Source: Pararhizobium sp. IMCC3301
Lineage (GTDB): Bacteria > Pseudomonadota > Alphaproteobacteria > Rhizobiales > GCA-2746425
Reading direction: 5' to 3'
DNA: 64,000 nt
Assembly (NCBI RefSeq): GCF_030758315.1
Contig: NZ_CP132336.1
Coordinates: forward strand, 372,001 to 436,000
Below the pieces are notes generated by a model. The model saw only the letters and a program-made list of their open reading frames with translations, did not search any database and was not told the origin of the DNA. Shown in pieces: positions 33,390-49,971 of this stretch (position 1 is its first letter; each line of letters begins with the position of its first letter). The position numbers and the translations under genes are program-made.

Positions 33390-34911
33390 CGGATGTGTTG
33401 CCCATATCGCTGGTCGGCTTGCTGTCTCCAGCCGGCGTCTGCCGGGTTTTTGACTTCGGACGTTTTCTGCGCCACGGCGCACTGCGCAAGCCGCGCCTCA
33501 CCAAGCCATGACCGTCCTTGTTCATCAGTTCTACCAGAATGCCCTCGCGCAAACCACGGTCCGCAACGCGCAGCTGATCGCAGGAAAATTCCCGGCGGAT
33601 AGCTTCGAAAATTGCGCAGCCCGGCAGCACCAGATCGGCCCGGTCCGAACCGATGCAAGGATGTTGCACGCGCTCTTCATAGCTCAACGCCAGCAATTGC
33701 TGGATCATCGATGCGGCATCGTCATTGCTCATCCACATGCCATCAACCCGGCGGCGGTCATAACGCCGCAGTCCCAGATGGACCCCTGCCAATGTCGTCA
33801 CCGTGCCCGAGGTTCCGAGCAGATGATGCCGTCCGCGGGACAGTGCCTGCTGCAACTCGCGGCGCTTTGGAAACGCCTCCAGCATGTCCTGCACCTCTTT
33901 GACCATCAGCTCAAAACTGTCCCATGTGACATTTTTTCCATCATGGCGTTCAGACAGGGTCACGACACCGACCGGCAGCGAGGCCCAGGCTCGTAACGTT
34001 CCGCCCAAACGGTTGCGCTTTCTGCGCCCGCGCCGGTCCAGCCATACAATTTCAGAAGAACCACCGCCAATATCAAACAGCACAACCCCGTCGGAGCGCG
34101 GTTCCACCAGTGACGAACAACCTGTCACCGCCAGTCGCGCTTCGGTTTCCTGATCGATAATTTCCAGATCAAGGCCAATTTCCCGCGAGACACGCTGCAG
34201 AAACTCAGCACCGTTTTCCGCCGACCGGCAGGCCTCTGTGGCAATCAGTCGAACCCGTTCGACCTTGTGGTATTTGAGCTTGTTCCAACAGATCCTCAAG
34301 GCAGAGATGGCCCGGTCCGCAGCCTCATCACCCAAACGGTTATTCCTGGAAATGCCCTCTCCCAGACGGACAATGCGGGAGAATGAATCGATGATGCGGA
34401 ATCCCTGATCTCTGGGTTCGGCAATCAGCAATCTGCAATTATTGGTACCAAGATCGAGAGCGGCGTATTTGGTGACAGATTTGGCCGATGCTGTCTTTCC
34501 GGATTCATCCTGACTACGGCCCTGCCTTGCATAGGCCGGTTTGCCGGACGTCGCAGAAACGGTCGACGCGGCCTGCATTGACGGTACGCGCCCGGCCCCT
34601 TCGACCTGACGGCGTTCTGCATCTGCATCAGCACGCTGCTCCGCATCCGCATCGATATATCCGGCAGACAGTGCCGGTTCATCCAACATCGCAGTTGACA
34701 ATGCCTGCCGCGATGCAACCCTGGCAACTGGTGAGCGGACCGCGATTTCAACGGATCCATCGCTGCCATCTGGTTTCACAGAACCGCCATGCTGCTGCAA
34801 AACTGATACCGGTTCGACACATGCGGTGCCGCCTGACAGTTCATTGCGCGCAAAACCTGTGTCCTGCGAGGATGAGCCCAGCAAACCGGGTTCCCCATCC
34901 TTACTCGTCAC
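33379..34911 (-). CDS. Ppx/GppA-family phosphatase with N-terminal extension
   Basis: An exopolyphosphatase or guanosine-pentaphosphate phosphatase of the sugar-kinase/Hsp70 ATPase fold, 510 residues. The catalytic core begins about residue 147 ([18 protein letters not shown]) and contains [41 protein letters not shown] and [20 protein letters not shown]. It lacks the long C-terminal HD domain of E. coli Ppx. About 145 residues at the N-terminus are Ala/Ser/Gln-rich and look disordered; an internal start close to the core is possible. The C-terminal tail is basic. It is followed by overlapping rlmE, an order common in rhizobia. Confidence 0.9.
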
Positions 34912-35037
34912 TATACTTTCCTCACGCCCTACGCTGGCGGATTGCCAGTGGCGTTTTTACGTTACAGTTAGTGTAGCACTGAATGCACAGACCGCAAGCT
35001 TGAGAACGAGGTTTGCAACATTTGGCCGGATTGCGCG

Positions 35038-36042
35038 CTAAGTCCGCTCTGCAGCGATATTAATCACGGCGCGGCCTTTCACCTGTCCCTTCAGGATTGC
35101 GGGACCCAGCGCTGGCAGATCAGCCAGCCGGTGTTCTTCGACCATCGGCTCCAGCCGGTCCATCGGCAATTCGCCCACCAGACGGTGCCATGCCGCAACG
35201 CGGCGCTCATAGGGACAGGCAACAGAATCAATTCCCAGCAGATTGATGCCGCGCAGCAGAAACGGAATAACCGTAAAAGACGGCACGGCAGCTCCGCCGG
35301 CCAGACCGATTGCCGCCACCGAACCGCCATAGCGGGTTTGCTTGAGAACCCGGCCCAGCATCTCGCCGCCGACCGCATCGATGGTTCCGGCCCAGCGCTC
35401 GGACTCCAGCGGGCGCTTATTTTCCTCTGTCAGTTCCGCGCGCGCAATGATTGTGGTGGCACCCAGCCCTGTCAGATAATCAGCCGTTTCCGGCCGTCCG
35501 GTGACAGCGGCAACGCTGTAGCCCAGATGTGACAGGATCGATACGGCAACCGAGCCAACGCCGCCAGCTGCGCCTGTGACCAGAACCTCCCCCTTGTCAG
35601 GCTGAAGGCCATGTTCTTCCAGTGCCATGACCGCAATCATGGCGGTCAGACCCGCCGTACCGATGGCCATGGCGTGCCGCGCGTTCATGCCTTGCGGCAT
35701 CGGCACCAGCCAGTCCGCCTTGACCCGCGCTTTGGTGGCATATCCGCCCCAGCGGGCTTCTCCGACGCGCCATCCCGTCAAGATGACCTCATCGCCGGCC
35801 TTGTAACGCGCATCCGAAGACTGTGAGACCACACCGGCAAAATCAATTCCCGGAACATGCGGAAAAGTGCGCACCAGCCCGCCCTTGCCGGTGATGCAGA
35901 GCCCATCCTTATAATTCAAGGTGGAATAGGCCACATCGACGGTCACATCGCCGTCCGGCAAGCGGCTGTCATCCAGCGTTTCGATGTTCTGGCTGACGCT
36001 GCCCGCTTCATCCTTATCGACCACCAATGCGGTAAAACTCAT
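35038..36042 (-). CDS. acuI: NADPH-dependent acrylyl-CoA reductase-like MDR oxidoreductase (AcuI/YhdH)
   Basis: A zinc-independent medium-chain reductase, 334 residues. AcuI reduces acryloyl-CoA to propionyl-CoA and is used in 3-hydroxypropionate and DMSP breakdown. Family hallmarks: STLNYKDGLCITGKGG, FPHVPGIDFAGVV, GWRVGEARWGGYA, IGTAGLTAMIAVMALEEHG, VLVTGAAGGVGSVAV, GIDSVACPYERR and a C-terminal LGPAILKGQVKGRAVI. ATG 36042 is used because the family N-terminus MSFTALVV starts there. It is 40 bases downstream of mbfA. Whether the enzyme serves DMSP metabolism or a general detoxifying role is open. Confidence 0.9.
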   Translation of the reverse strand: MSFTALVVDKDEAGSVSQNIETLDDSRLPDGDVTVDVAYSTLNYKDGLCITGKGGLVRTFPHVPGIDFAGVVSQSSDARYKAGDEVILTGWRVGEARWGGYATKARVKADWLVPMPQGMNARHAMAIGTAGLTAMIAVMALEEHGLQPDKGEVLVTGAAGGVGSVAVSILSHLGYSVAAVTGRPETADYLTGLGATTIIARAELTEENKRPLESERWAGTIDAVGGEMLGRVLKQTRYGGSVAAIGLAGGAAVPSFTVIPFLLRGINLLGIDSVACPYERRVAAWHRLVGELPMDRLEPMVEEHRLADLPALGPAILKGQVKGRAVINIAAERT

Positions 36043-36082
36043 TTCTGTCTCCATTTGCTCGTATTCGGTGTTTGCATCAGTA

Positions 36083-37060
36083 TCAGGCACTGCCGATGAT
36101 GATGCCTGCGGCAAACACCAGCGCACCTCCCAGCACCACTTGCATCGCCGCCCTGAAGAACGGCGTATCCATATATTTGTTCTGAATCCAGGCAATCACC
36201 CACAATTCGATGAACACGATCACGAAGGCAATGCTTGTCGCCGTCCAGAAATCCGGGATCAGATAGGGCAGCGCGTGGCCCAGCCCGCCAACCGTCGTCA
36301 TGATGCCGGAGGCAAATCCGCGCTTGATCGGTGAGCCACGGCCTGAAATCTGGCCATCATCGGAAGCCGCTTCAGTAAATCCCATGGAAATGCCGGCACC
36401 GATGGAGGCGGCAAGACCGACGAGAAATGTTGTCCAGGTATCCTGCGTTGCAAAAGCGGTGGCGAAAATCGGCGCCAGAGTGGACACCGAGCCGTCCATC
36501 AGCCCCGCCAGACCGGGCTGCACCCAGGTCAGAATGAATTTGCGGTGGGATTCCTGATTTTCCTGCTCCAGCGCATCCGCATGCAGATGGGTGTCCTGCA
36601 GCTCGCCCGCCTTGGCCAGATGGCCCGCTTCCGCCTGGGCCAGATCGCCGAGCAGTTTCCGCGTATCGGCATCTGTCACCCGCGCCGCAGCGCGCAGATA
36701 AAACTCATGGGCCGCGTCCTCCATATTGGCGACTTCATCGCGAATTCGTTCAATCCCGAGATTTTCGATCAGCCACACCGGCCGCCTGGCGTAATAGCCG
36801 GCCACATGTTCGCGCCGTATCAACGGAATCTCATCGCCAAACCGCACCTTGTGCAGATCGATCAGGCGCTGCCGGTGCAACCCCTCTTCGGTCGCCATGC
36901 CGTCCAGCAGCGCGGCACTGGCAGGAAATTCATCGCGCACCTTGGTGGCGTAGCTCTGGTAGATTCGCGCATCATCCTCCTCCGCCGAGATGGCAAGCGC
37001 CAGCATTTCCTGTTCTGATAAATCCAGAAAACGGCGCGCATTTGAAAAGCGGCTGAGCAT
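36083..37060 (-). CDS. mbfA: Membrane-bound ferritin / iron exporter MbfA
   Basis: A 325-residue inner-membrane protein typical of rhizobia: an N-terminal ferritin-like di-iron domain (ISAEEDDARIYQSYA, TEEGLHRQRLIDLH, MEDAAHEFYLRAA, AQAEAGHLAKAGEL) to about residue 150, then a CCC1/VIT1-like membrane domain (VQPGLAGLMDGSVSTLAPIF, FLVGLAASIGAGISMGFTEA, GIMTTVGGLGHALPYLI, LVFAAGIIIGSA). It is known to export iron and protect from peroxide in Agrobacterium and Bradyrhizobium, under Irr control. ATG 37060 has AGGTGA upstream. I could not see a clear Irr box in the 257 bases before the divergent transglycosylase gene. Confidence 0.93.
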   Translation of the reverse strand: MLSRFSNARRFLDLSEQEMLALAISAEEDDARIYQSYATKVRDEFPASAALLDGMATEEGLHRQRLIDLHKVRFGDEIPLIRREHVAGYYARRPVWLIENLGIERIRDEVANMEDAAHEFYLRAAARVTDADTRKLLGDLAQAEAGHLAKAGELQDTHLHADALEQENQESHRKFILTWVQPGLAGLMDGSVSTLAPIFATAFATQDTWTTFLVGLAASIGAGISMGFTEAASDDGQISGRGSPIKRGFASGIMTTVGGLGHALPYLIPDFWTATSIAFVIVFIELWVIAWIQNKYMDTPFFRAAMQVVLGGALVFAAGIIIGSA

Positions 37061-37317
37061 GGTGATCACCTGTAGGGTTGCCTGTGGATTTGTTGACACG
37101 GATCAGGGGCAAACTAGGGCTGCAATGCGACAAGGTCCATACGCCGCCGCCACTTATCCCGATTATTTCATCCGCAAGTCCGGTCCTGGCCAGCGTCGGT
37201 GGTGTTTTTGATTGGCAACTGCAAGCGCAGGACTGCACGCTTGACGGCAGCATCCGCCCTTGCCAGTCTCGCCGCAGAATCGGAGCTGTTTCAACCCGGC
37301 CCCACGGAGATCATTTG

Positions 37318-38628
37318 ATGAGTGTTTGCCGCAAAAACCGCCCTCTTGAATTGGCTTTTTGGCCCCAAATCCGCTCATTCACCTGCCGATTGCTCCGCAA
37401 CCTTGCTTTGGCTTTGGCGCTGACAGCTCTGTCCGCGCCCGCTTTCGCTCAGGACCGCGCCGCAATTGAGCGGCAATTCCGCAACTGGCTGGATGCAACA
37501 GTGCTGCCACGGGCGCAGGCCGAAGGCGTGTCGCGCAAAACCTTTGAGGTCGCCTTTACCGGAGTGACGCTGAACTGGGACCTGCCGGACCTGGTGCCGC
37601 CCGGCACCGTCGCCCGCGTGCCGCAGCGCCAGCGCCAGGCCGAGTTCAGCGCGCCCGGCAAATATTTCTCGCGCGGCGCGGTTGGCGGGGCAGCCGCCAC
37701 CGGCCGGCAGATGGCGGCGCGCTATGCTAAAATTCTTGCGGCAGTGGAGCGGCGCACCGGCGTGCCGGGGCGCATCATCCTTGCCATCTGGGGCCGCGAA
37801 AGCGGCTATGGCCGCGCATCCATCCCCTATGACGCGTTTCAGGTGCTGGGCACCAAGGCCTTCATGAGCACCCGCGCGCCCTATTTCACCGATGAGTTGA
37901 TTGCAGCGCTGAAAATCGCTGAAGCCGGCCATGCACCGCAACGCGCCATGAAAAGCAGCTGGGCCGGTGCCCTCGGCCAGCCGCAATTCATGCCCTCCAA
38001 TTTCCTCAAATACGCTGCCGATGGCGATGGCGATGGCCGCGCCGACATCTGGGGCTCGCAAGCCGACACCATCGCCTCGATCGCCTCCTATCTGTCCGCC
38101 CATGGCTGGGTCAGCGGCCGCGACTGGGGCTTTGAGGTCACTGTGCCGCCATCCGTCTCCTGTTCGCTGGAAGGTCCCGATCAGGGCCGCACCATCGCCA
38201 CCTGGGAAGCGGCCGGCATCCGCCGCGTCTCCGGAAAACCCTTCCCGGACCACGAAAGACGGGCCGAGGGCTATCTGCTGATGCCGGCCGGCCGCAACGG
38301 CCCGGCCTTCATCGCCACACCGAATTTCTTCGTCCTCAAAGCCTATAATAACAGCGATCTCTACGCCCTGTTTGTCGGCCATGTCGGCGACCGCATCCAG
38401 TATGGCACCGGCGACTTTTCCGCCCCCTGGGGCGCTGTCGGCGGCCTCTACCGCTCCGATGTGGCCACCATGCAGCGCGCACTTGAAGCCCAGGGCCACG
38501 ACGTCGGCGGCGCCGACGGCCTCCCCGGCTTCAAAACCCGCCGCTCCATAGGCCGCTGGCAGGAGGCGAATCGGCGCGCGACAACGTGTTTTCCCGAGGC
38601 AGGCATGAAGGGTGTGCTGGGGCGGTGA
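37318..38628 (+). CDS. Lytic murein transglycosylase (MltB-like) with peptidoglycan-binding domain
   Basis: Cleaves the MurNAc-GlcNAc bond of peptidoglycan with formation of 1,6-anhydroMurNAc. The 436-residue protein has a signal peptide (NLALALALTALSAPAFAQ), an SLT_2/MltB domain with the catalytic Glu in WGRESGYGRAS, ALGQPQFMPSNFLKYAADG and DGDGRADIWGSQADTIASIA, and a C-terminal peptidoglycan-binding repeat (DVATMQRALEAQGHDVGG, DGLPGFKTRRSIGRWQ). ATG 37318 has GGAGA seven bases upstream; the same frame is open for 80 codons before it without family-like sequence. It is divergent from mbfA. Confidence 0.92.
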   Translation: MSVCRKNRPLELAFWPQIRSFTCRLLRNLALALALTALSAPAFAQDRAAIERQFRNWLDATVLPRAQAEGVSRKTFEVAFTGVTLNWDLPDLVPPGTVARVPQRQRQAEFSAPGKYFSRGAVGGAAATGRQMAARYAKILAAVERRTGVPGRIILAIWGRESGYGRASIPYDAFQVLGTKAFMSTRAPYFTDELIAALKIAEAGHAPQRAMKSSWAGALGQPQFMPSNFLKYAADGDGDGRADIWGSQADTIASIASYLSAHGWVSGRDWGFEVTVPPSVSCSLEGPDQGRTIATWEAAGIRRVSGKPFPDHERRAEGYLLMPAGRNGPAFIATPNFFVLKAYNNSDLYALFVGHVGDRIQYGTGDFSAPWGAVGGLYRSDVATMQRALEAQGHDVGGADGLPGFKTRRSIGRWQEANRRATTCFPEAGMKGVLGR

Positions 38629-38884
38629 TGGGGGTTCTTTTGATGGTGAGGGGTTGCGCAAATCAGAACATTGGATGAATAGCGCTTTCGCGCCCATAGC
38701 TGCCTTCCGAGCTCCAGTCAACATGCCATGCTGCGGCCCACCAAAGAAACATTCGTCGTAGCCGCGCGAATTGGAAACCAATCAAGTCTGCAGGTGCTTT
38801 GTTATGTTAGGAATTTCCAGTGGAAATTAGCCGTATCGCTGAGTTAAATATATCCGTTAAGAGACGAGACCCATCTGAAAGAAA

Positions 38885-39463
38885 ATGCAAATGAAAATCG
38901 CATTTCTTGCGTGGGGCTCGCTGCAGTGGGACCCAAGAAATCTCAAACAGGCTACTGAGTTTTCGCCAAGCGGTCTTACACTCCCTATCGAATTTAGCCG
39001 TATTTCTGGAATCAGTGGCAAACCGCGTCGGCTCACCTTAGTCATTGATGAAGAGAATGGTAGCCCGTGCAGCACCTATGCGGCCGAAAGTGCTTTTAAT
39101 GCGCTTGACCAGGCAAAGGAAAATCTTCGAGACCGCGAAGGAATGCACCACGTGAATGGGGTTGGATATGTTACAATGCAAACAGATGATACTAGTATTC
39201 GCGCGTTAGAGCGGCATCCTGAGACAGTCAAGACAATCCGATCTTGGCTCGTAGCAAGCGACTTTGATGCTGCAATCTGGACAGCCCTTGCCAGTAATTT
39301 CACCAAACGTGCGGGGGAACAATTTTCTGTCGAGGCAGCTCTACGCTTTCTCAATCGGCAACCGCAGGTGCAACTCGCCGCTGCGTTGGAATACATCCGT
39401 AAGGCGCCGGCGTCAGTGCAAACGCCAATTCGAGTTGCCGTGTCAAAGCATTGGCCTGTGTGA
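38885..39463 (+). CDS. Gamma-glutamylcyclotransferase-like protein, function unknown
   Basis: A 192-residue cytoplasmic protein. The opening KIAFLAWGSLQWDPRNLKQA, then LPIEFSRISG, KPRRLTLVIDEENGSP and a later LRDREG resemble small proteins with a GGCT/AIG2-like fold in which WGSL corresponds to the substrate loop of the cyclotransferases; I recall similar hypothetical proteins in accessory regions. Enzymatic function is not established. Base composition drops relative to the neighbouring transglycosylase, suggesting the left edge of a transferred segment. ATG 38885 or 38891 can start it. It is convergent with the nuclease-like gene that follows. Confidence 0.6.
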   Translation: MQMKIAFLAWGSLQWDPRNLKQATEFSPSGLTLPIEFSRISGISGKPRRLTLVIDEENGSPCSTYAAESAFNALDQAKENLRDREGMHHVNGVGYVTMQTDDTSIRALERHPETVKTIRSWLVASDFDAAIWTALASNFTKRAGEQFSVEAALRFLNRQPQVQLAAALEYIRKAPASVQTPIRVAVSKHWPV

Positions 39464-39534
39464 ACGCGAGGGGGTCACTCGTCAGATCCGTCAACTGATA
39501 AGCGCTGGAAACTTGCCGCAGCGCAACTACTCAT

Positions 39535-41070
39535 CTATGCCTCAAAACCACCGCAAATAAGTACAGGACCAGCGATCCCTTTGCGCCGTTTGAAAGTCTC
39601 AACACACAGATCAATGAAGTCGGACGTGTCGGCACCTGGTGCGCGGACTACGTCATCAACCACACTAGGTTGCCCTGCAATGATCTTAATCTCTTTGTCA
39701 TCGCGAGCAACTGAAGCAATAGGTAATTCAATGAGAGCGGCATACTGGATCCCCATCAGTTCGACGGATATTGGAGCCAAAATTTCCCCTACCTCGTCAA
39801 CTATCCCGTCTTCCGGCCAACGTGAAAAGTTTAAGTTACCGTCAGGTGTCGATCCCAATGCCAGCAACTCGAAGTGAGTTTCCACCCACTCATTGAACGT
39901 CTCCAACCGAATGGTACCCTGTGGGCGGCGGGTGGATCTATTGAGTGCCGAGCAAATCCTCCGCAGCATGGGTGCAACAGGAATCCAATGCTTGAACGGC
40001 CCCTGCTCTTCGACGATTGGAAGCGTCATTCGGGCGTCTATGAATTGAACAGTCAGCAATTTTTTGGGTCGGGCCAGAACTGCGCCGATTTCGTAAATTG
40101 AAACCGCCTCTTCGAGTTCAACCTTTCGGCTGCCATCATAGTCGAAGGTGACACCAGCCCACTCTTTTTGAAAATCGAAGACGACCTCGAAGTACTGGTT
40201 CGCGAAGCGAATTTTCGACGTTTCCCGATCTGCCAAGAAAGGTGGCGGGATGAAGACATCGACGGGAATTGAGATCCACTCGCCTGTTTCCGCCTCAATC
40301 TCGATCGAAGCAGAGAGAAGCGCCTGAGCATCCATTTCGAGAATGGCATCGCGTAGATAGAACTGGTCGTTGTTCAATGGAATCCCAAATCGACGCTGTT
40401 CGATAGTCAGGTGATTGATCTCAAGCTGCCTTTTTCCTCCAAGGAAAAGGTCACCCAGCTTATGGTGGGCGTTTTCGCCGGGAACAAAGAAGCGCCCGAT
40501 GGTTAGTTCGTCGGCGAACCCGCAGGTTTCTCGGACGCGTTTCTTGTGAGCGATGTACGCATTGGGGGAGCGGCTCACGATATCGTGCAGGGCACTCGAC
40601 AAGCCTTCTCCGTCAGGACCGATTGCTGTTGCGCGCTCCATGGGTATGGGAACTTTGACCTTATGAATCTCTCTGTTGCCCTTCGCCTCCTGCGCACGGA
40701 CGAGTCGCAAAGTGTCGGCGATGAGGGCTTCGTCCACAGGTACGATCAGGCACCGTTTAGAACGTCTCCCCCCTTTTGCATAGAATAGGATTGCGATTGC
40801 GGCTGGCAGATCCGTGTCAACCAGGTGCTTCAGAGCTGAAAGTTTGATGCGTGGTGTCGATGTGGCATGTTCTGTGGTTTTGACTTGGACAAGAAACTTC
40901 AAAAGGTCATTTTGTTGGTCAAGAGGCCGGTCGGGACCGCGCTTCGGGTCGGCTTCAAGCATAAAATCCCAGCCAAGGCGGTCGGGGTCAGACCTTTGAG
41001 CGTGAAACCCCTCCGGCTCACACCAGCTTGCGAATTCATTTTGTCCCCTAGTTCCGGACTCAGGTTTCAT
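39535..41070 (-). CDS. Putative PD-(D/E)XK nuclease-like protein of a defence islet
   Basis: A 511-residue cytoplasmic protein. The first 70 residues resemble a restriction-endonuclease-like fold of the DUF4365 kind: an N-terminal Glu (GQNEFASW, E12), Asp in GWDFMLEAD (D35) and a QxK strand FLVQVKTTEH (Q62, K64), giving E-D-QxK. The rest (about 70-511) has no family I recognise and is predicted mixed alpha/beta without membrane segments. It lies 66 bases downstream of the 985-residue PHP/SMC-like ATPase on the same strand, so the two probably form an operon. Nuclease activity is an inference from the short motif only. Confidence 0.6.
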   Translation of the reverse strand: MKPESGTRGQNEFASWCEPEGFHAQRSDPDRLGWDFMLEADPKRGPDRPLDQQNDLLKFLVQVKTTEHATSTPRIKLSALKHLVDTDLPAAIAILFYAKGGRRSKRCLIVPVDEALIADTLRLVRAQEAKGNREIHKVKVPIPMERATAIGPDGEGLSSALHDIVSRSPNAYIAHKKRVRETCGFADELTIGRFFVPGENAHHKLGDLFLGGKRQLEINHLTIEQRRFGIPLNNDQFYLRDAILEMDAQALLSASIEIEAETGEWISIPVDVFIPPPFLADRETSKIRFANQYFEVVFDFQKEWAGVTFDYDGSRKVELEEAVSIYEIGAVLARPKKLLTVQFIDARMTLPIVEEQGPFKHWIPVAPMLRRICSALNRSTRRPQGTIRLETFNEWVETHFELLALGSTPDGNLNFSRWPEDGIVDEVGEILAPISVELMGIQYAALIELPIASVARDDKEIKIIAGQPSVVDDVVRAPGADTSDFIDLCVETFKRRKGIAGPVLICGGFEA

Positions 41071-41136
41071 CGAAATATTTCCATCATGGTGTGACTAACG
41101 CGAAAGCTCACATTGAATTGTCCGACCCGAGTGAGT

Positions 41137-44094
41137 TTATCGCTCGAGCCGGACGCGGAGGCGACGCGCGCGTTCCTTGAACGCTTCTTCTCCACCCTCC
41201 AAAATATCGCAAACGTGCTTTCGCATGACCGCGTCCTCCAAGCCGCCGGATTGATATGTTATTGGGGGCAATTCGCCAGGGCTGTGCGGTCCCGACGTGG
41301 CAACAATGATCTGATCGGCGTCAGTGTTGATGACGAGATTGGCGTTATGGGTGACCATGATTACTTGCCGCTTTGCTTTCGCCGCTATGAACAAACTGAC
41401 GAGTTCGTCAAATATTGACTTGGGATCAAGATTTTCTTCCGGCTGATCAATGATGAGTGGCCGCTGATCAGCTTCGTCAAGTGCAAGGTAGAGAAGCAAA
41501 AGGACGATGCCTCGGGTACCAGGCGACAATTTGGTAATGTCTGTGCCCTCATAATCAATACCGTATTCGATCTGGATGTGATCGGTACTGAACAGCCACT
41601 TGGCAAAACGCATCAGCCAGTTTCGATAGGCGGTCGCGTCGTCAGCCGGGACATTCGCAACCGCCATCAATTCGTCCTGCCATTCCTCTGTGAAGTGCTG
41701 AAGTGCCTTGTCGATCGAAGCAACATCCCCTGTTTCCCAGGCAGCTTGGATATGGGAATTTGCCCATTGCTCGATAGAGCCTTTGCCCTTGAAATCCCCA
41801 GCCCGCCTAAGATCAAACAGTTCTTCGCCGTCGGAAGCCCACTCTCGCACATCCGCCTTACGGGTGGCCGAAAACGAGAGTTTCTGCAGCGAACCTTTCG
41901 CTGTCTGCAGCCGGTCGACTAACGGCTGGTAGAGTTCGCGCAAAACCTGCTCTTCTGCAATGATGGATGTGAACACACGCAAATAGGCTTGCTGCCGGCT
42001 TTGGCTAAGTGTCCGCATTCGCTCTGCAGCGGCTTCAAAGTCAACTAGTGAAGTCCGCAGGTTCTCGATCTGTGTGTTCTCCTCCGCTATGCGCTTGACC
42101 AGCCGGGCAAATTTTTGGGCAGTCTCCGTATCGATGTTGATGACTGTCTGAAGACGGTCGGCTTCTGCCTCCAATATCGCGAGAGGCGTTTTCACTGGAT
42201 CTGCATCGTCAGCAAGATAGGACTGATTGACCTCCGCCGGCGGTGCAGGTTTCATTCCTCTCCAAGAATTAGCGCTTTGCTGCGCCGAGGTAAGTTTTGC
42301 GGTAAGTGCCACGTCCACGTCACCGTGATATTTGAGGAGGAATGCATCCCAGTCGCTTTCGTCGAGGCGTGCAGCAACGAAACTGGATTTCGTGGCACGC
42401 AAAGCCTCAGGGGCCTTGTTCTCTCGGAACGCTTTTACCTCATCCTGCAACGATAGCAGCGAGGTACCCTGATTTGCATAGAACCGGATATAAGAGCGGA
42501 CCTTCTCGGCTGCGTTAGCGATAACAGTAAGTCTCTCCGCCCGAGGTTCACTTCCTTTGACGATGAGCTTGTTCCGATCAGAATCCAAGCCCTTAACCAG
42601 TTGCTCTTTCTGCGAAAGTTGCTGTTTAAGCCCTGTAATTCGCAAGCGTTTCTCCCGCTCCAATCCGATCTGATCGGACAGCGATACAATCACTCCCGCT
42701 TCTCGCGCGCGCGCCAGCCGATGCCGGTTCGCGCGAAGTTCAAGCAATTGATCAAACCGAAACGTTCCATCCTTTTCAGGGTGAGTTTCAAAAATCACGC
42801 GCTCAATCTCGGCGAGCAGCTCATCCGTCATTCCCTTGGCCGAGCAAAGTTCTTCTACGAACTTCTGGGAAAGGTAGAGTGCTCTGGGAAACCGCCCATC
42901 AAGTTCGGGATCGTATTCGTAATCCAGTAGTTCGCGCTCCGACGGGTCGCCACTACCCCAATCAATCTTCACGCTAACGCCTGACAGCAGACTACCTGCG
43001 CGAACAAGAAATGATGCCGTGCTTAAGCTTTGAGAGGCGGCGTCGCAGCCTGCGGCTATTGCATCAGCAAGTGCTGTTTTTCCAGAACCTCGTGCACCGA
43101 TGATAGCGACGAGACCTGGGTTAAGATCAATCTGAGGTGAGCGCGCCCATTGGGCTCCCTGAATGGTGGCACGCGAGAGCACCTGCGATGGTGTCGCGCG
43201 TATCGGCGGTGCTGTACCCACATATGCACGCCCGCCCGGATCAATCACAGCTTGTCTGAGAGTGTCGAAGTGAGCTCCCCCCTTAACCCAGGAAAGACGA
43301 TCTCCGTCCGGAGCGCCTACCTTCGCTGTGTCATGAGCATCGCTGCCGTGAAGGCATGGCTTGAGAGCACCATAGCGTTCCCGAATGTCGCTCTCCGAGC
43401 TCTTTCTTCCTAGCCAATAGTCACGCTGACTTGGGCTGCTAGAGAAAATGATGTGGGCGAACTTTTCGACTTCCTGGCGTTGAGCACCTTCGGCTTCACC
43501 CCGCATGCCAGAAGTACCGTCATTTCCACTCCCTGCAACAGCTATTAAGATGTTTTGTTTTGCCCAGTCTACGGCTCGGTAAACTTCTACGAGTTGCTCG
43601 AAGTTTACTTTGAATTGCGTTGCCCCACGGGCAAGTGCAACTCGGTCGGACAGTTTGCTATCAACCTTCGTGCCAAGTCGCGTAAGGTCCTCAGGCGTAC
43701 ACGTAAATCGATCACCAAATGCATCAAACGTCAGCTGTGCTAAAAAGCGCTGTGTGGCCTGAACATGATCAATTGCCTCAGGATTGATGAGAAGGTGGCA
43801 ATTGACCCAATTGCCTTTGATTGTCCCAAATGCCAGGCGAAGCTCGACGTTTGGGAATATTAGGTCGACACCAGAAAGTCGACCGCCTTGGTATTTCGCC
43901 TCGCAAACCTCTTCATAGGTGTCGAGCAAATAGTAGTCCGTGACGCCAAGCGCCCGAATTAGGGGCGTCGATGACTCAATCTTCGCAAGATACTGCTCCT
44001 TAGTATCAGTTCCCTTGAATTGATTGTTGAGAACCGTACCTGGCGCATGGATATGCGGTTCCCACCGCAGCCATTGCGAGCCGGAGTTTGTCAT
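41137..44094 (-). CDS. TrlF/Ppl-type protein: PHP phosphoesterase domain fused to SMC-like ATPase
   Basis: A 985-residue protein. The N-terminus is a PHP-type metal-dependent phosphoesterase domain: WEPHIHAPGTVLNNQF gives HxH at residues 14 and 16, and CLHGSDAHD at about 248-255 a second metal motif. A P-loop (AIIGARGSGKTALADA, about 331-346) opens a split ABC/SMC ATPase. It is interrupted by long coiled coils (about 440-780) and closes with LSPGTRGIVLLLLYLAL (signature), PLIIDQPEENLDP (Walker B) and VTHNANLV. This is the layout of the TrlF family and of the anti-phage gene ppl (polymerase/histidinol-phosphatase-like) described by Gao and colleagues in 2020. ATG 44094 matches family N-termini; a GTG lies 15 codons upstream. 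It is followed by a nuclease-like gene. Confidence 0.85.
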   Translation of the reverse strand: MTNSGSQWLRWEPHIHAPGTVLNNQFKGTDTKEQYLAKIESSTPLIRALGVTDYYLLDTYEEVCEAKYQGGRLSGVDLIFPNVELRLAFGTIKGNWVNCHLLINPEAIDHVQATQRFLAQLTFDAFGDRFTCTPEDLTRLGTKVDSKLSDRVALARGATQFKVNFEQLVEVYRAVDWAKQNILIAVAGSGNDGTSGMRGEAEGAQRQEVEKFAHIIFSSSPSQRDYWLGRKSSESDIRERYGALKPCLHGSDAHDTAKVGAPDGDRLSWVKGGAHFDTLRQAVIDPGGRAYVGTAPPIRATPSQVLSRATIQGAQWARSPQIDLNPGLVAIIGARGSGKTALADAIAAGCDAASQSLSTASFLVRAGSLLSGVSVKIDWGSGDPSERELLDYEYDPELDGRFPRALYLSQKFVEELCSAKGMTDELLAEIERVIFETHPEKDGTFRFDQLLELRANRHRLARAREAGVIVSLSDQIGLEREKRLRITGLKQQLSQKEQLVKGLDSDRNKLIVKGSEPRAERLTVIANAAEKVRSYIRFYANQGTSLLSLQDEVKAFRENKAPEALRATKSSFVAARLDESDWDAFLLKYHGDVDVALTAKLTSAQQSANSWRGMKPAPPAEVNQSYLADDADPVKTPLAILEAEADRLQTVINIDTETAQKFARLVKRIAEENTQIENLRTSLVDFEAAAERMRTLSQSRQQAYLRVFTSIIAEEQVLRELYQPLVDRLQTAKGSLQKLSFSATRKADVREWASDGEELFDLRRAGDFKGKGSIEQWANSHIQAAWETGDVASIDKALQHFTEEWQDELMAVANVPADDATAYRNWLMRFAKWLFSTDHIQIEYGIDYEGTDITKLSPGTRGIVLLLLYLALDEADQRPLIIDQPEENLDPKSIFDELVSLFIAAKAKRQVIMVTHNANLVINTDADQIIVATSGPHSPGELPPITYQSGGLEDAVMRKHVCDILEGGEEAFKERARRLRVRLER

Positions 44095-44448
44095 TTTCCA
44101 CCACTGGTGGTCATTAAAGTTTTCAAAGCTGAATCTCACTTCACACTACAATGTAACAAATGTCGCTTCCTACAAATTCCGGAGCTCCACTGGCCTAATT
44201 ATATTTTAGCTTATTAAAAAGCCAGCGATTGCTGCAAACTCGACGGGCAATCCTTATCTCATGCGCGCTTAATTTATCATCTTCTCGTGATTTCTTCTGT
44301 GTTTGTGCAGGATCATTTAAGTCTGCTTACAACTCGAGGGCACAACAAATTTGCGTCAGCAGCGAATGGCCGCTTCCCGTCCTAAACGGCCGACAATAGC
44401 CTGCGATAATGGCCGGTGCTCGCGCTGCCCCAGTCATACCCGACATCC
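44095..44448. other. AT-rich gene-free stretch at the right edge of the defence islet
   Basis: No supportable gene. The stretch from about 44140 to 44330 is clearly more AT-rich than either side and must contain the promoter of the PHP-ATPase operon. It separates the defence genes from the decayed LysR fragment. I found no tRNA, integrase remnant or matching direct repeat with the left edge at 38640-38880. Confidence 0.5.
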
Positions 44449-44735
44449 TCACCCGTCCCTCAGCACCCCCCCCCCATATGCTCAATAATCACTGCCGACC
44501 AAACGCGGATGCGCTCCACCTCCGTATACTCCTTATGCACCACGCCCCGGAAGCTGCGGGTGAAGGAGACCCGTTGCGGCAATACCTGGTGCAGTTCGGG
44601 ATGGCGCCGTGCCATGAAATCATGGACTATGCCGACGCCTGCCCCGTTCAGCACCGCCTGCGATTGCACATCCACGCGGGTAGCGGTCAGATACAGGCGG
44701 AAGGCCGGATCGAGCGGCGCGATGTCATCCGGCGC
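44449..44735 (-). pseudogene. Decayed 3' fragment of a LysR-type regulator gene
   Basis: Minus-strand translation gives LDPAFRLYLTATRVDVQSQ, AVLNGAGVGIVHDFMARRHP, then ELHQVLPQRVSFTRSF and VVHKEYTEVERIRVWSA, closely matching the last 85-90 residues of the intact LysR protein encoded at 50834-51715. The rest of the gene is missing: similarity stops at about 44735, eight bases from the stop of the dehydrogenase gene. A run of ten C (44466-44475) shifts the frame so that translation ends at 44460, while the original ending VLRDG plus stop is still readable at 44449-44463. It lies in the same orientation as the intact gene. Confidence 0.88.
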
Positions 44736-44742
44736 CTGCAGC

Positions 44743-45609
44743 TCAATCGCTGGCGAGATGCCGGGTCAGGCTTGCGCCGTCGAACCCTCCCAGACCGCTG
44801 GACAGCGCCTTTGCGTAGCTCTTTCTGGTTTCTTCCGAGAGCGGCATGGGACGTCCGGTGAGCGCCGCCTGCCGGAGCGCAAGTTCAAGGTCCTTTGCCA
44901 GCCCGGCGATATCGAACGTGCCCGGCTGGTCGGTTCCGTTCAATGTGTCGACAACCACCTGCGCGCGGTTCTTCAGAACCGTCGGTCCGGCGGAGCTGTC
45001 CGCGATCAGCGAGATGGCGGTTTCGGCCTGGATGCCCGAACCCTCCAGCATTGTCAGTGCCTCGGCGAGCGTCTTCCAGTAAATCGCCAGGGGGAGATTC
45101 ACCGCGAGCTTCATCTGGGCGCCGGTACCGGCCGGGCCAAGGTGCTCCACGCGCCGGCAGAGTTGCTCAAGCACCGGCTTTGCCCGCGCGAAGCCCGTCC
45201 CGGTGCCACCTGCCATGCCAAGCAATTGCCCCTTGAGCGCCGGGCCGACCGTGCCGCCGACCGGGCAGTCGACGAAATCGGCGCCTGCGGCGGCGAATTT
45301 TTCGGCCTGCGCCCGCGTCTCGTCGGGAAGCAGGGTCGACAGATCGATGATGAGTTTGCCTGTGATGCCGGCGCGGATCAGTTCCGCCGTTACCGCCTCG
45401 ATCGCCGGGGCATCGGTGAGTGAGACAAGGATCGCGTCTGCTTCTGTTACGGTTGCAAGATCGGGTGCGACAATTGCCCCGGCCTCGGCTGCCGCCGCCG
45501 TGCGCGACTGCGTGCGGTTCCAAACGGTAACCCTGTGACCGACTTCAATGAGGCGCCTGGCAAAGGCGGTTCCCATCCGCCCGGTTCCGACGATTGCGAT
45601 ATGTGTCAT
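44743..45609 (-). CDS. Beta-hydroxyacid dehydrogenase (3-hydroxyisobutyrate dehydrogenase family)
   Basis: A 288-residue NAD(P)-dependent oxidoreductase. The Rossmann start IAIVGTGRMGTAFARRL, the substrate-binding VDCPVGGTVGPALKGQL, the catalytic-lysine segment GAQMKLAVNLPLAI and a C-terminal KDLELALRQA are typical of the family that includes tartronate-semialdehyde reductase and glyoxylate reductase. The glycine motif GTGRMG with Arg allows either cofactor; substrate is unknown. It is the last gene of a minus-strand trio with RraA- and FAH-family genes in a catabolic islet, so it probably handles an intermediate of the same pathway. Confidence 0.87.
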   Translation of the reverse strand: MTHIAIVGTGRMGTAFARRLIEVGHRVTVWNRTQSRTAAAAEAGAIVAPDLATVTEADAILVSLTDAPAIEAVTAELIRAGITGKLIIDLSTLLPDETRAQAEKFAAAGADFVDCPVGGTVGPALKGQLLGMAGGTGTGFARAKPVLEQLCRRVEHLGPAGTGAQMKLAVNLPLAIYWKTLAEALTMLEGSGIQAETAISLIADSSAGPTVLKNRAQVVVDTLNGTDQPGTFDIAGLAKDLELALRQAALTGRPMPLSEETRKSYAKALSSGLGGFDGASLTRHLASD

Positions 45610-45639
45610 GGTGCGATTTCCCTGTTCAATCCGGCCTGT

Positions 45640-46251
45640 TCAATCCGACTTGTCTAATCCGAGTATCTGAAGTGTTGTTTCCCCCGCGCGGAGCCGTTCC
45701 ATCATGCGCGCCTCGCCGGCGGCGCGGGCCTCCGCTGCCGCAAGCGCGGCACGGGCGGCGGCTGCCGGCAGCACGATGACCGCGTCGGCATCGGCGACGA
45801 TCATATCGCCGGGGGTGATCCTGACCCCGCCGATCTCCAGCGCTATGTCGATCTCGCCCCTGTCGCGTTTTGTCGTGCCCCGGATGTCGAGGCCGCGTGC
45901 GAAGACGGGAAAACCCATCGCCGCGATTTCGGCACTGTCGCGCACGGCACCGTCGATCACAAGTCCCGCGATGCCACGCAGCTGGCAGGCAAGCGCCATG
46001 ATTTCGCCGAACGGACCGCTGTCGCAGCTTCCGCCGTAATCCGCCACGATCACGTCACCCGGCGAGGCCGCAGCGATGACATGGTGGAGGGCAAGATTGT
46101 CCCCGGGACGGCAGCGCACTGTCCGCGCCGGGCCGGCAACGCGCATTCCATGCCCAATCGGTCGAAGCGGTGCCAGCAATAGCCGCGCCTGCGATGCGGC
46201 CTCCCCCACGGTCGCCGTGCCGAGCGCTGCAAGGCGCGCGGCAACGTTCAC
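45640..46251 (-). CDS. RraA-family aldolase/decarboxylase-like protein
   Basis: A 203-residue protein of the RraA fold. Members with the catalytic pattern seen here act as 4-hydroxy-4-methyl-2-oxoglutarate/4-carboxy-4-hydroxy-2-oxoadipate aldolases or oxaloacetate decarboxylases. Motifs: VIVADYGGSCDSGPFGEIMA, LVIDGAVRDSAEIAAMGFPV and GVRITPGDMIVADADAV; the Arg of GAVRD and following Asp are the substrate and metal residues of the aldolases. Its start overlaps the FAH-family stop by 4 bases. Together with FAH and the dehydrogenase it suggests retro-aldol cleavage of a C4-C6 dicarboxylate-type intermediate. Confidence 0.85.
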   Translation of the reverse strand: MNVAARLAALGTATVGEAASQARLLLAPLRPIGHGMRVAGPARTVRCRPGDNLALHHVIAAASPGDVIVADYGGSCDSGPFGEIMALACQLRGIAGLVIDGAVRDSAEIAAMGFPVFARGLDIRGTTKRDRGEIDIALEIGGVRITPGDMIVADADAVIVLPAAAARAALAAAEARAAGEARMMERLRAGETTLQILGLDKSD

Positions 46252-46946
46252 GCGGCTGGATCTGCGATGCGGACCTGCATCGGCTCCAGCCCGTCGACCG
46301 AGCAGTCGAGCACGTCACCGGTGACGACCGGACCGACGCCCGCCGGCGTGCCCGTCATAATGATGTCGCCAGCCGCCAGTTTGTGCTGTTCGGAGAGTTT
46401 GGCGATGATTTCATCAATCTTCCAGATCAACAGCGAGATGTCGGCATCCTGCCGGGTTTCGCCGTTCAACTCGAGCCGGACGTGTCCACTGGTCATCACA
46501 CCGGTCTCCTCGACGCGGGTGAGCGGACCGACCGGCGCGGAGTGATCAAAACCCTTGGTCACCTCCCAGGGCAGACCTTTTTCCAGCGCGTTCGCCTGAT
46601 GGTCGCGGCGGGTCATGTCGAGGCCGACAGCATAGCCAAAGATGTGCTTCGACGCCTCGGCCCGGGGAATGTTGTAGCCTCCGGATTTCAGGGCGACGAC
46701 GAGTTCGCACTCATAGTGAAAATTGTTGGTGAAGACCGGATAGGGGATTTCGCCGCCGTTTCGCACGATGGCGTCCGACGGTTTCATGAAAATCACCGGC
46801 GGATCGCGCTCGTCCTGGTTCATTTCCCGGACGTGGGCGAGATAGTTCTTGCCAATGCAGTAGATGCGGCGGACCGCAAACTTGTCGTCGGACGCTGTGA
46901 TGTCGAGATACGCCTGCTGCGGCGGCGAAAGGGCAAAGGCTACCAT
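46248..46946 (-). CDS. Fumarylacetoacetate hydrolase-family protein (fumarylpyruvate hydrolase-like)
   Basis: A 232-residue metal-dependent C-C hydrolase or isomerase. The sequence closely follows the fumarylpyruvate hydrolase/NagK pattern: RRIYCIGKNYLAHVREMN, PPVIFMKPSDAIVRNGGEIP, NFHYECELVVALKSGG (metal-binding Glu residues), FGYAVGLDMTRRDHQ, KGFDHSAPVGPL and IMTGTPAGVGPV. It is the first of three minus-strand genes, overlapping RraA by 4 bases, and is divergent from an ABC transporter operon. The substrate may be an acylpyruvate-type product, but no ring-cleavage dioxygenase is nearby. Confidence 0.88.
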   Translation of the reverse strand: MVAFALSPPQQAYLDITASDDKFAVRRIYCIGKNYLAHVREMNQDERDPPVIFMKPSDAIVRNGGEIPYPVFTNNFHYECELVVALKSGGYNIPRAEASKHIFGYAVGLDMTRRDHQANALEKGLPWEVTKGFDHSAPVGPLTRVEETGVMTSGHVRLELNGETRQDADISLLIWKIDEIIAKLSEQHKLAAGDIIMTGTPAGVGPVVTGDVLDCSVDGLEPMQVRIADPAA

Positions 46947-47257
46947 AGGTTTCTTCCTTGAACGGGTTCATAGACGGGGCCGGCTTTATAGACTGGGCCG
47001 GGTTCATAGACGGGCATGCTGATGCGTTATTTTGCGATTCACGCTCCGCTCAGGCTTCCTCGTTTTGGCGTGTATATCAAGATATTATTCCTGTGTCGAA
47101 ACCAGATCATATATTTTTTTGGTGTTTTCTGCAAAATCGTATATCGTTGAATGGGATCTTTGGGGCCATCGCGCTCCGGGGGGCCCCAAGAAATCAAAAC
47201 GAAAATGATACGGAAACGACACGACAACGACACGACAACGATTGGGAGGACTTTCAA
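46947..47257. promoter_or_regulatory. Divergent control region of the catabolic islet
   Basis: The region between the FAH-family gene and the ABC-transporter operon should carry both promoters. It contains three copies of an 18-base direct repeat around CATAGACGGG (about 46967-47015) and a small dyad ATATC-AA-GATAT at 47074-47085, a possible site for the GntR-family regulator encoded at the end of the operon. Neither is proven; the part from 47070 to 47160 is AT-rich, as expected for promoters. Confidence 0.4.
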
Positions 47258-48289
47258 ATGACGATACGCAACCAGATATCCCGCCGCGGTTTCGGCAAAC
47301 TCACAATGGGCAGCATTGCCATGGCAGCCATTGGCGCGCCGTCCATCGTACGTGCCCAGACAGCGATCACCTTTGCAGTGCCAAACCCTTCTGCGCTGAC
47401 GTGGTTGCCCTATTGGGTGGCCGTGGGCGAAGGCTATTTCGCAGATGAAGGGCTTGCGCCGACCCTCGAAGCAATCGACGGATCGTCCGCGGTGCTTCAG
47501 GCGATGGCGGCCGGACAGGCCCAGATCGGCGCTCCAGGGCCCGGCCCCACGCTTGGGGCGCGTGCACGCGGCGTGGATGTGAAGTTCCTTTACAATCTCT
47601 ATCCAAAGTCGGTCTTCGGCTTGCTCGTCAAGGCGGACAGCGCATACCAGACACCCGCCGATTTGAAGGGCACTGTGATTGGCGTTGGCACTGCCGACGG
47701 GGCAGAAGTCTCGTTCACCAGCGCGATCATGGCCGATCTCGGCATGTCCGACGGGACCGATTTCACTTATCTGCCTGTCGGTGACGGCGGAACGGCCGCA
47801 ATCGCTTTCCTGCGTGATGAGGTCAATTCTTATGCCGGCGCGGTCTCCGATGCCGCGATTCTGGCAGCCCGTGGCCTCGAACTCAGAGAGATCACCCCCG
47901 AAGCCTATCTCGGGTTCTTCGGCAACGGAATTGCAATGCTCGAAAGCCAGATGCAAGCCATGCCGGAGCTCGCGCCGAAATTCGGCCGCGCACTGGTTCG
48001 GGGCACACAATTTGCCTCCGATCCTGCCAACAAGGACGCATCCCTGGCCCATTGCGCCGCTGGCAATCCACAGGAAGGCGAGCAGGACTACGCGGCCTCG
48101 CTGTTCGATGGTGTGGTTGTACGGATGACCCCGACGGACGCGTTCATGGACAAGGGATACGGCTACCAGCCACCGGAGCATTGGCAGGCGATCCACGATT
48201 CCGCCGTTGCCTCCGGGGCGCTCTCGGAAGCCCTGCCTGACCTTTCGGCGGCCTACACGAACGAGTTCGTTGCGGGCTGGAACGCCTGA
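47258..48289 (+). CDS. ABC transporter substrate-binding protein, NitT/TauT (SsuA/THI5-like) type
   Basis: A 343-residue periplasmic binding protein. The start is fixed by GGGAGGA seven bases before ATG 47258. A twin-arginine leader (SRRGFGKLTMGSIAMAAIGA, cleavage near VRAQ) suggests Tat export as a folded protein. The mature part has the family opening ALTWLPYWVAVGEGYFADEG, QAMAAGQAQIGAPGPGPT, LKGTVIGVGTADGAEV and a C-terminal GYQPPEHWQAIHD. It begins an operon with an ATPase, a permease and a GntR regulator and is divergent from the FAH/RraA/dehydrogenase genes, so it probably brings in their substrate. Confidence 0.88.
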   Translation: MTIRNQISRRGFGKLTMGSIAMAAIGAPSIVRAQTAITFAVPNPSALTWLPYWVAVGEGYFADEGLAPTLEAIDGSSAVLQAMAAGQAQIGAPGPGPTLGARARGVDVKFLYNLYPKSVFGLLVKADSAYQTPADLKGTVIGVGTADGAEVSFTSAIMADLGMSDGTDFTYLPVGDGGTAAIAFLRDEVNSYAGAVSDAAILAARGLELREITPEAYLGFFGNGIAMLESQMQAMPELAPKFGRALVRGTQFASDPANKDASLAHCAAGNPQEGEQDYAASLFDGVVVRMTPTDAFMDKGYGYQPPEHWQAIHDSAVASGALSEALPDLSAAYTNEFVAGWNA

Positions 48290-48294
48290 GATAT

Positions 48295-49107
48295 ATGGCG
48301 GAGCCCCAGCCATTGAGACCCCTGCTGGTCGCGCCCGAGGCGCGGCCGGTTTATGAGATCGAGCGGTTGTCCAAGACCTATGCCCGCAACAGTCTCGTCG
48401 CGCTCACCGACGTGCATCTGACGATCCACAAGAGCGAATTCGTCTCGGTGATCGGCTCTTCAGGATGTGGAAAATCGACGCTGCTCAAAATCATGGCCGG
48501 TCTGCTTCCGCCCACCACCGGACGCGTGGTGCTTGAGGGCCGTCCCGTGGTCGGTCCGAGACGGGATATCGGAATGATGTTCCAGCAGGCAACGCTGCTG
48601 CCGTGGAAGACCACGATCGAGAACATCGTCATGCCGATCGAGATCAGAGATGGGCGTGGCGCCGCACGTGCCGCGCGCGAGCGGGCCATGGAGCTTCTGG
48701 AACTGGTCGGCCTCGGCGATTTCGCCAATGTCTATCCAGGTGAACTTTCGGGAGGCATGGCGCAGCGCGCCTCCATATGCCGGATGCTGATCAGCGACCC
48801 GGCGATGCTGCTGCTCGACGAGCCCTTTTCAGCGCTCGACGAATTAACCCGCGATTTCATGAACATGGAGCTGCAGCGCATCTGCACGGAACGCGGCGCC
48901 ACGACATTCCTCGTCACCCACTCGCTCGCCGAGGCCGTATTCCTGTCCGACAGGATACTTGTCATGAAGGCCCGGCCGGGGCATATCGTCGAGGATGTCC
49001 GGATCGACTTGCCACGGCCTCGCACTCTGGAGATGATTAACACGCCGCGCTTCGGAGAGATCGTAGCGCATATCCGCAACCTGTTGGGAAAAGAGGCCTT
49101 CGTATGA
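48295..49107 (+). CDS. ABC transporter ATP-binding protein, NitT/TauT type
   Basis: A 270-residue cytoplasmic ATPase. Walker A GSSGCGKSTLLKIMAG, Q-loop MMFQQATLLPWKT, signature ELSGGMAQRASICR, Walker B MLLLDEPFSALDEL and the H-loop LVTHSLAEAVFLSD are all intact. The signature is LSGGM rather than the more usual LSGGQ/LSGGM variants of this group, which is acceptable. It follows the binding-protein gene by 5 bases and overlaps the permease start by 4 bases. Confidence 0.93.
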   Translation: MAEPQPLRPLLVAPEARPVYEIERLSKTYARNSLVALTDVHLTIHKSEFVSVIGSSGCGKSTLLKIMAGLLPPTTGRVVLEGRPVVGPRRDIGMMFQQATLLPWKTTIENIVMPIEIRDGRGAARAARERAMELLELVGLGDFANVYPGELSGGMAQRASICRMLISDPAMLLLDEPFSALDELTRDFMNMELQRICTERGATTFLVTHSLAEAVFLSDRILVMKARPGHIVEDVRIDLPRPRTLEMINTPRFGEIVAHIRNLLGKEAFV

Positions 49108-49970
49108 CCGATATGGCGCAGAAGCCCCGCGACGACACGGTGTGGGCCGACGACACCGTGTGGGTCGAGCACGAGGCCTTCATCGACCGCATTCCGCGCT
49201 GGGTGGCGATGACATTCCTGTTTGTCACCGTCGTCGGGATCTGGGATCTGGTCACGCGCCTGGGATGGGTGTCGGCCATCATTCTCCCCACACCCGCCGA
49301 GACGCTCAATGACCTGATCTTCGTCGGTCACAACCTGATCAGTGGCGAATACATGCTTGTCGCGCTGTGGACGACGACGCTCACCGTTTTCTACGGGTTC
49401 CTCATTGCGGTCGCGATCGGGTTTTCGCTCGGCGTACTGGTGGGCGAAACGAAATTCGGCGAGCGCGCGGTCATGCCCTATCTCGTGGCGATCGACACGA
49501 TGCCGAAAGTTGCGTTCGCGCCGCTCTTCATCGCCTGGCTTGGATTCGATATCGGCTCGAAAGTTGCGCTTGCAGCCTTCATCGCCACTTTTCCCATTGT
49601 CGTCTCCACGGCCGCCGGTCTCTACGCCGCCTCTGAAAACGAGCGGATGCTTTTCAAGTCGATGGGCGCGAATCGAATGCAGACGCTTCTCCGGCTGAAA
49701 CTGCCGACAGGACTGCCCTACATCTTCACTGGCCTGAAGATCGCGGCGGTCGGTGTCATGGCCGGGGCAATTACGGGCGAGTTTCTGGGTGGCGGCAGGG
49801 GTTTTGGCGCGCTGATCCGGCAGTCGGCGAGCCAGCTCGATACGCCGCGGGTCTTCGCGCTGATCCTCTATCTCAGCCTTCTCGGCCTCGTACTCTACTT
49901 CACCGTCGTCTGGATGCAGCGCCGGTTTGTGTTCTGGAACAAGTCCGATCTGCCAGGCGGGGTTGGCTGA
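49104..49970 (+). CDS. ABC transporter permease, NitT/TauT type
   Basis: A 288-residue inner-membrane permease with about six helices. After a hydrophilic N-terminus of some 30 residues, it has WVAMTFLFVTVVGIWDLV, ALWTTTLTVFYGFLIAVAIG, and the EAA-loop region AASENERMLFKSMGANRMQT with LLRLKLPTGLPYIFTGLKIA, which contacts the ATPase, followed by AGAITGEFLGGGRGFGALI. It is translationally coupled to the ATPase gene (ATGA overlap) and is followed after one base by the GntR gene. Confidence 0.92.
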   Translation: MTDMAQKPRDDTVWADDTVWVEHEAFIDRIPRWVAMTFLFVTVVGIWDLVTRLGWVSAIILPTPAETLNDLIFVGHNLISGEYMLVALWTTTLTVFYGFLIAVAIGFSLGVLVGETKFGERAVMPYLVAIDTMPKVAFAPLFIAWLGFDIGSKVALAAFIATFPIVVSTAAGLYAASENERMLFKSMGANRMQTLLRLKLPTGLPYIFTGLKIAAVGVMAGAITGEFLGGGRGFGALIRQSASQLDTPRVFALILYLSLLGLVLYFTVVWMQRRFVFWNKSDLPGGVG

Positions 49971-49971
49971 T

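Follow-up and report, generated by a model that had tools for sequence, protein, structure and literature searches.

The window analysed here is a 64-kb stretch of DNA from Pararhizobium sp. IMCC3301 (NZ_CP132336.1, 372,001–436,000; coordinates without a locus name are positions in the window), and the subject of this study is an islet of three genes within it, which the original prediction had described as a candidate defence islet with a TrlF/Ppl ATPase, a nuclease-like partner and a GGCT-like gene. The minus strand carries the gene for a 985-residue TrlF family protein with a PHP domain and an SMC-like ATPase (41137..44094), followed after a 66-bp gap (41071..41136, minus strand) by the gene for a 511-residue protein (39535..41070, minus strand), for which a profile match, an AlphaFold2 model and Foldseek point to an N-terminal DUF4365-like PD-(D/E)XK domain and a C-terminal part without a family. 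The third gene (38885..39463, plus strand) is convergent with this pair and encodes a 192-residue protein of an unnamed family. All three reading frames are present, and the strand and spacing of the 511-residue gene are as had been predicted. A sequence scan of the 66-bp gap, weak evidence as such scans are, gave no promoter-like or terminator-like match.

Conservation of the gene pair

As judged from sequence comparison, the TrlF gene and the 511-residue gene are a real cassette, the two members of which appear to move together in one line of cassettes. A blastn comparison of positions 36000–47000 with the Shimia aestuarii locus (L004) gave a single match, in which 44094–39535 corresponds to L004 6987–11536 at 77.2% identity. 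The limits of this match are the start codon of TrlF and the stop codon of the 511-residue gene, and no other match was obtained in the 11 kb of the window compared; the 192-residue gene lies outside the Shimia cassette. In a third genome, G073, a TrlF relic is found (L005:8769–9008), a short frame that corresponds to the C-terminal 71 residues of TrlF and stands 68 bp before an intact 517-residue homologue of the 511-residue protein; this relic is 66–68% identical to the window and Shimia proteins and 56–63% identical to six other TrlF proteins. The gap in Shimia is 56 bp. Three genomes that differ in what surrounds the genes thus preserve the order and spacing, one of them in the form of a relic. 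Between the window and Shimia, the nonsynonymous (dN) and synonymous (dS) divergences are 0.069 and 1.44 for TrlF and 0.14 and 2.24 for the 511-residue protein, indicating purifying selection on both genes, with dS near saturation in each case. An IteS-like gene lies upstream of the pair in Shimia.

The TrlF ATPase

The ATPase is assigned to the TrlF family by NCBIfam model NF045780 (TrlF family AAA-like ATPase), which matches over positions 2–943 of 944 with 663.8 bits against a cut-off of 350. The longest frame encodes 1000 residues from a GTG at 44139, 15 codons before the ATG at 44094; the latter is taken as the start, as both the start of the Shimia homologue (88% amino-acid identity) and the start of the DNA match coincide there. 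The motifs that had been read from the sequence (H14/H16, GARGSGKTA, LSPGTRG and DQPEENLDP) are all present. In the PHP part, with the motif H14-I-H16 (44047..44055, minus strand), residues H16, T52, D53, E84 and D252 are invariant in an alignment of 14 TrlF proteins, whereas H14 differs in divergent members. In the ATPase part, with the Walker A sequence GARGSGKT (residues 333–340; 43075..43098, minus strand) and the Walker B/D-loop sequence DQPEENLD (residues 883–890; 41425..41448, minus strand), the same alignment shows G333, G336, K339, S857, G859, D883–E886, D890 and H916 to be invariant. Both the PHP and the ATPase motifs are intact in the window protein.

The predicted label TrlF/Ppl held for its first half only. 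Ppl was rejected, with 113 bits for NCBIfam NF042955 against a cut-off of 1000 and 104 bits for the PADLOC model PDLC02208. The two proteins are alike in having a PHP domain ahead of an SMC-like ATPase, with the best shared stretch at the C-terminus, and differ in that Ppl is described as a single-gene system in a review (PMC12904381). In the same review, Escherichia coli Ppl is given as a 3′–5′ exonuclease on single-stranded DNA which is inhibited by nucleoside triphosphates (NTPs) and needs nucleotide depletion and 3′ ends. To the TrlF family, in contrast, the likeness is full-length, including the PHP and ATPase motifs, with no sequence difference seen; the difference is one of gene neighbourhood, as set out below.

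A search with the TrlF family at E 1e-3 matches 145 of 150 genomes and all 14 controls, which is SMC-type noise, and TrlF counts therefore include a match only if it exceeds the cut-off or reaches E 1e-60. Among 385 genomes of the class, 12 have a TrlF that exceeds the family cut-off. On plasmids, a match at E 1e-60 or better was obtained in 39 records, and in 37 of these it covers at least 80% of the protein. In the 11 plasmid records that were opened, TrlF has AbiEi/AbiEii, restriction, CBASS and VapC genes among its neighbours. An AbiEi–AbiEii–TrlF array was observed on Shinella, Agrobacterium and Polymorphum plasmids (L087, L088, L089 and L097), in which TrlF is in two frames in L089 and is cut in L097, with an IS21 element following. 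Viral contigs searched with TrlF yielded no relative, and literature searches by name returned no paper on a TrlF protein among the matches listed; searches of the literature on ietAS were likewise unproductive.

Predicted fold and active site of the 511-residue protein

The 511-residue protein of the window has no match at E 1 or better in Pfam, NCBIfam or PADLOC, and its annotated plasmid relatives are called hypothetical. By single sequence, the Pfam family DUF4365 matches one of 13 relatives (E 0.0012) and not the window protein, while 22 relatives scanned with PADLOC gave weak matches to PDC-M02A (best E 0.001), Aga_REase-PNTD1-PNTD2 (0.014) and Cas4 (0.044). When residues 1–165 of 24 relatives were made into a profile and compared with a DUF4365 profile of 21 stretches (21 of 22 matches, the short L145 being left out), the match had a probability of 95.9% and an E value of 6.2e-9, with five control comparisons at 0.16–0.57. 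The split L039 and the fragments L047, L074 and L147 are in none of the alignments of the family, the split frame L101 is represented by its first part, and L071 and L073 belong to the 24-sequence set and not to alignment A4.

Five residues, D30, G33, D35, Q62 and K64, are kept in all 24 aligned relatives, and the D and Q-x-K among them align with those of DUF4365. D35 (40966..40968, minus strand) is the predicted metal ligand and Q62-V-K64 (40879..40887, minus strand) the predicted active site. From the E-D-QxK constellation proposed originally, the D and the Q-x-K are thereby retained, whereas E12 is found in only three of 24 relatives and is rejected as a catalytic residue; the usual acidic site of the family is position 10, which is E in 17 of 24, Q in six (the window protein included) and a gap in one. 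The inactive form of the DUF4365 nuclease TmuRE was obtained by mutating Q62 and K64 (PMC10810196); that these residue numbers are alike in TmuRE and the 511-residue protein is a coincidence.

An AlphaFold2 model built from seven sequences has a mean predicted local distance difference test (pLDDT) score of 63.5 and a predicted template-modelling (pTM) score of 0.52, with block means of 75–90 for residues 11–130 except 41–60. The core of the model (residues 5–97) has the order helix–strand–strand–strand–helix–strand, which we take to be the PD-(D/E)XK arrangement, with an extra short strand at 74–76; D35 is located just before the second strand and Q62–K64 within the third. In a Foldseek comparison of the model with the PDB, chains of SPARDA occupy ranks 1–13, and every match with an E value of 0.001 or better, 11 in total, is among them; 12 of the 13 are aligned over 424–499 columns, in a listing that does not name the subunit. 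DpnI follows at rank 14, and Hjc and I-Ssp6803I are at ranks 25–27.

The profile comparison and the predicted structure thus agree on the PD-(D/E)XK fold foreseen for the partner protein, and support the assignment of the 511-residue protein to the DUF4365 type, which would presumably act as a DNA nuclease. Several results weigh against this assignment. With shallower profiles (13 relatives against four DUF4365 sequences) the match had a probability of only 14.7% and an E value of 0.0018, so that its strength depends on alignment depth. The pLDDT of the model is below 50 from about residue 378 on, Foldseek ranks 15–24 are unrelated folds apart from a second DpnI entry, and a sequence search of the PDB with profiles of the family gave nothing below E 0.77 and no PD-(D/E)XK chain. 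In addition, superposition on the SPARDA chains is poor, with template-modelling (TM) scores of 0.15–0.24, so that the resemblance to SPARDA lies in local structure and its order and is not a superposition. As for viruses, phage records gave no match to the 511-residue protein, and viral contigs searched with its Pectobacterium relative gave no relative.

Partners of the two proteins at other loci

Outside the cassette the two genes are mostly found apart. Among 26 TrlF loci that were read, the 511-residue gene adjoins TrlF in the window and in L004 only, and at none of the other 24, all of which came from searches with TrlF (13 with a protein close to that of the window and 11 with a divergent one, L079 and L080 being one genome); left out of the 26 were L088, with the same gene as L087, L097, with a truncated TrlF, L049, with a contig end beside the gene, and shorter copies. 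L004 is not an unbiased case, since it was found by searching with the 511-residue protein. A family match to the 511-residue protein is present in six of the 385 genomes of the class (one being a 43-residue fragment), and the window's own genome is the only one that has both this and a TrlF over the cut-off. The 24 plasmid records with a relative of the 511-residue protein and the 39 with TrlF, in lists compared by eye, have no record in common. The pair was therefore rejected as a general two-gene system, the partner being absent from the loci found with TrlF, and the unnamed two-gene operon that had been proposed survives as one line of cassettes, in the window and Shimia and with a relic in G073. 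Equally, the 511-residue protein is not absent beside all other TrlF homologues, because Shimia aestuarii has a second intact pair and G073 has the intact partner behind a TrlF relic.

Other genes take the place downstream of TrlF elsewhere. In L094 it is an Mrr-like gene (20.7 bits, cut-off 21). In L048 (11319–13746), 52 bp behind the TrlF of G063, it is an AAA_21 ATPase gene with an HNH-like gene, the HNH match being below the cut-off; these two genes faintly resemble PtuA/PtuB or restriction-associated ATPase pairs, again below cut-offs. L095 has a close gene for 295 residues without a name. The gene 8 bp behind a divergent TrlF in L082 (5320–6528) matches SLFN_AlbA_2 and HATPase_c_4 of Pfam, and genes 3 bp behind divergent TrlF genes in L081 (3784–4998) and L084 (5220–6434) have a closely similar start; a TrlF/AlbA_2 operon is possible in these three loci. 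The remaining TrlF loci have other, or no, close same-strand genes downstream.

The relatives of the 511-residue protein likewise have varied company, as seen in 26 fetched loci (L074 being without a full match) plus the window, with L147 added later; the TrlF search covered 19 of the 26, while the other seven (L100–L104, L108 and L109) were judged by gene lengths and first residues. Twelve of the 24 plasmid records were opened. In two Methylocystis plasmids (L037:3505–8554 and L038:3427–8476) the relative stands 5 bp behind an S8 peptidase gene with an ATPase gene before it. These two genes in L037 are IteA/IteS-like, and the likeness to the IteAS (ietAS) ATPase and S8 peptidase system extends to the IteS-like gene of Shimia; the matches are nevertheless below the IteA and IteS cut-offs (202 of 510, 32 and 326 of 900 bits), and the islet of the window has no IteAS genes. 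In Afipia, ATPase and S8 peptidase-type genes lie upstream of a fragment of the family. A split gene of the family in A. vitis and a 47-residue fragment in A. tumefaciens are each followed directly by AbiEi/AbiEii, and a Bradyrhizobium relative is beside a helix-turn-helix gene. Other relatives have no recognised module next to them; for distant members, the neighbours are mostly hypothetical by annotation alone.

The 192-residue gene and the surroundings of the islet

The reading of the 192-residue protein as GGCT found no profile support and was rejected: there was no Pfam or PADLOC match, and the single NCBIfam match (E 0.039) is to a non-GGCT family. A profile search of the PDB gave nothing below E 0.5 and no GGCT among three matches up to E 10, and a search of viral contigs gave no relative. 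Its W-GSL-W start resembles that of ChaC/GGCT proteins. Relatives occur in 20 plasmid records, of which four were opened, three of the four closest among them. Those with 49–60% identity are near Qat genes (L098:5001–5588), near a CBASS phospholipase and Piwi (L110:4001–4567) and near an N-6 DNA methylase (L099:4992–5567), while a distant relative in Caballeronia (L111) is without such neighbours; a defence setting is thus supported for three of the four opened loci of this family.

The three-gene region has a G+C content of 52.7%, compared with 60.7% on the left (34000–38628) and 61.9% on the right (44743–50000). The predicted composition shift is thus real, yet moderate, because four of 294 equally long segments across the 64 kb have as little G+C or less, and values of 52–58% prevail at the far left of the window. 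The left neighbour, an SLT transglycosylase gene, is present in five of five genomes of the genus, and the right neighbour, a dehydrogenase gene, in one of five, namely its own. With regard to the ends of the islet, synteny with the genus showed the SLT gene as the only match across the 12–20 kb compared, and no convincing flanking repeats were found around the islet.

Discussion

The predicted defence setting is supported, through neighbours elsewhere, for TrlF, for the relatives of the 511-residue protein and for three of the four opened loci of the 192-residue family, and the islet is a compact defence patch, probably acquired by horizontal transfer. With a modest preference, we regard TrlF and the 511-residue protein as a co-transferred pair of separable defence genes, in which the latter is a passenger of different modules and not an obligate subunit of TrlF. 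The two co-directional genes would then probably share a transcript and move together. By analogy with Ppl, the SMC-type ATPase part of TrlF most likely recognizes DNA ends, bound NTPs would keep the protein quiet, and the PHP domain would degrade DNA once a phage depletes nucleotides and exposes ends. In cells with both proteins, the two may work against one infection, with TrlF attacking from DNA ends and the 511-residue protein acting as an endonuclease. Two points count against this reading: only two genomes are known to have the pair intact, one of them found by searching with the 511-residue protein, and a pair that has persisted over 24% protein divergence could reflect a real dependence.

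Such dependence would be complete in an obligate two-gene system, in which TrlF senses infection through DNA ends or nucleotide state and activates the 511-residue nuclease, like other ATPase/nuclease pairs. The common strand, the short gaps in three genomes, the exact cassette limits and the purifying selection on both genes fit this explanation, as do the nuclease-type genes that closely trail TrlF in L094, L048 and L082. It is nevertheless unlikely, given the absence of the partner at the loci reached through TrlF searches, the PHP motifs that TrlF keeps of its own, and the intact genes for the 511-residue family found behind the G073 relic and, at other loci, next to different modules. At the opposite extreme, unrelated defence genes may have come side by side once by chance and been copied between bacteria without a functional link. 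That there are only two intact pairs and that both genes also occur apart agree with a chance origin, which we judge rather improbable and did not take as the first choice because the boundaries of the shared DNA, which persists at 77% identity, fall precisely on the gene limits in two settings, and because the order recurs in relic form in a third genome.

A further explanation, compatible with those above, concerns the 511-residue protein itself, which could be an Argonaute-free relative of the DUF4365–APAZ (DREN) subunit of SPARDA, with an APAZ-like C-terminal part switched by another partner. The likeness to such nucleases, for example TmuRE, lies in the N-terminal DUF4365-type domain with its DREN-type D and Q-x-K, in a match of the N-terminal profile to one DUF4365–APAZ protein (E 0.00069) and in the SPARDA chains, of whichever subunit, as the best PDB matches of the model; the differences are the low TM-scores, a C-terminal profile that gives three APAZ sequences no more than the level of the controls (E 0.15), and the lack of a detected Argonaute gene. 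In a search of 151 records, apart from L148, the locus of the query, a short-Argonaute gene was found in five DUF4365/APAZ example loci (L126, L130, L139, L149 and L150), and the annotated Piwi gene of L110 was matched weakly (E 0.0044), but none was detected in the window or in any 511-residue locus examined (4–21 kb, some ending at a contig end). A relationship to SPARDA of this kind appears doubtful.

Taken further, the family would be a portable nuclease effector of the DREN type, placed beside different sensors (TrlF, IteAS-like proteins, AbiE or a helix-turn-helix protein) from which its APAZ-like C-terminal part, in place of a guide-loaded Argonaute, takes the signal; we put this forward as a speculative proposal of low probability. 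If the 511-residue protein is indeed an Argonaute-free relative of the SPARDA nuclease, one effector would have been re-used under different sensors. The family has a nuclease-type active site and defence-gene company, although its member in the window is matched at E 1 by no model of the three databases searched, and the family is worth following as a DUF4365-type nuclease family of unnamed architecture that stands, with no detected Argonaute, beside several defence modules.

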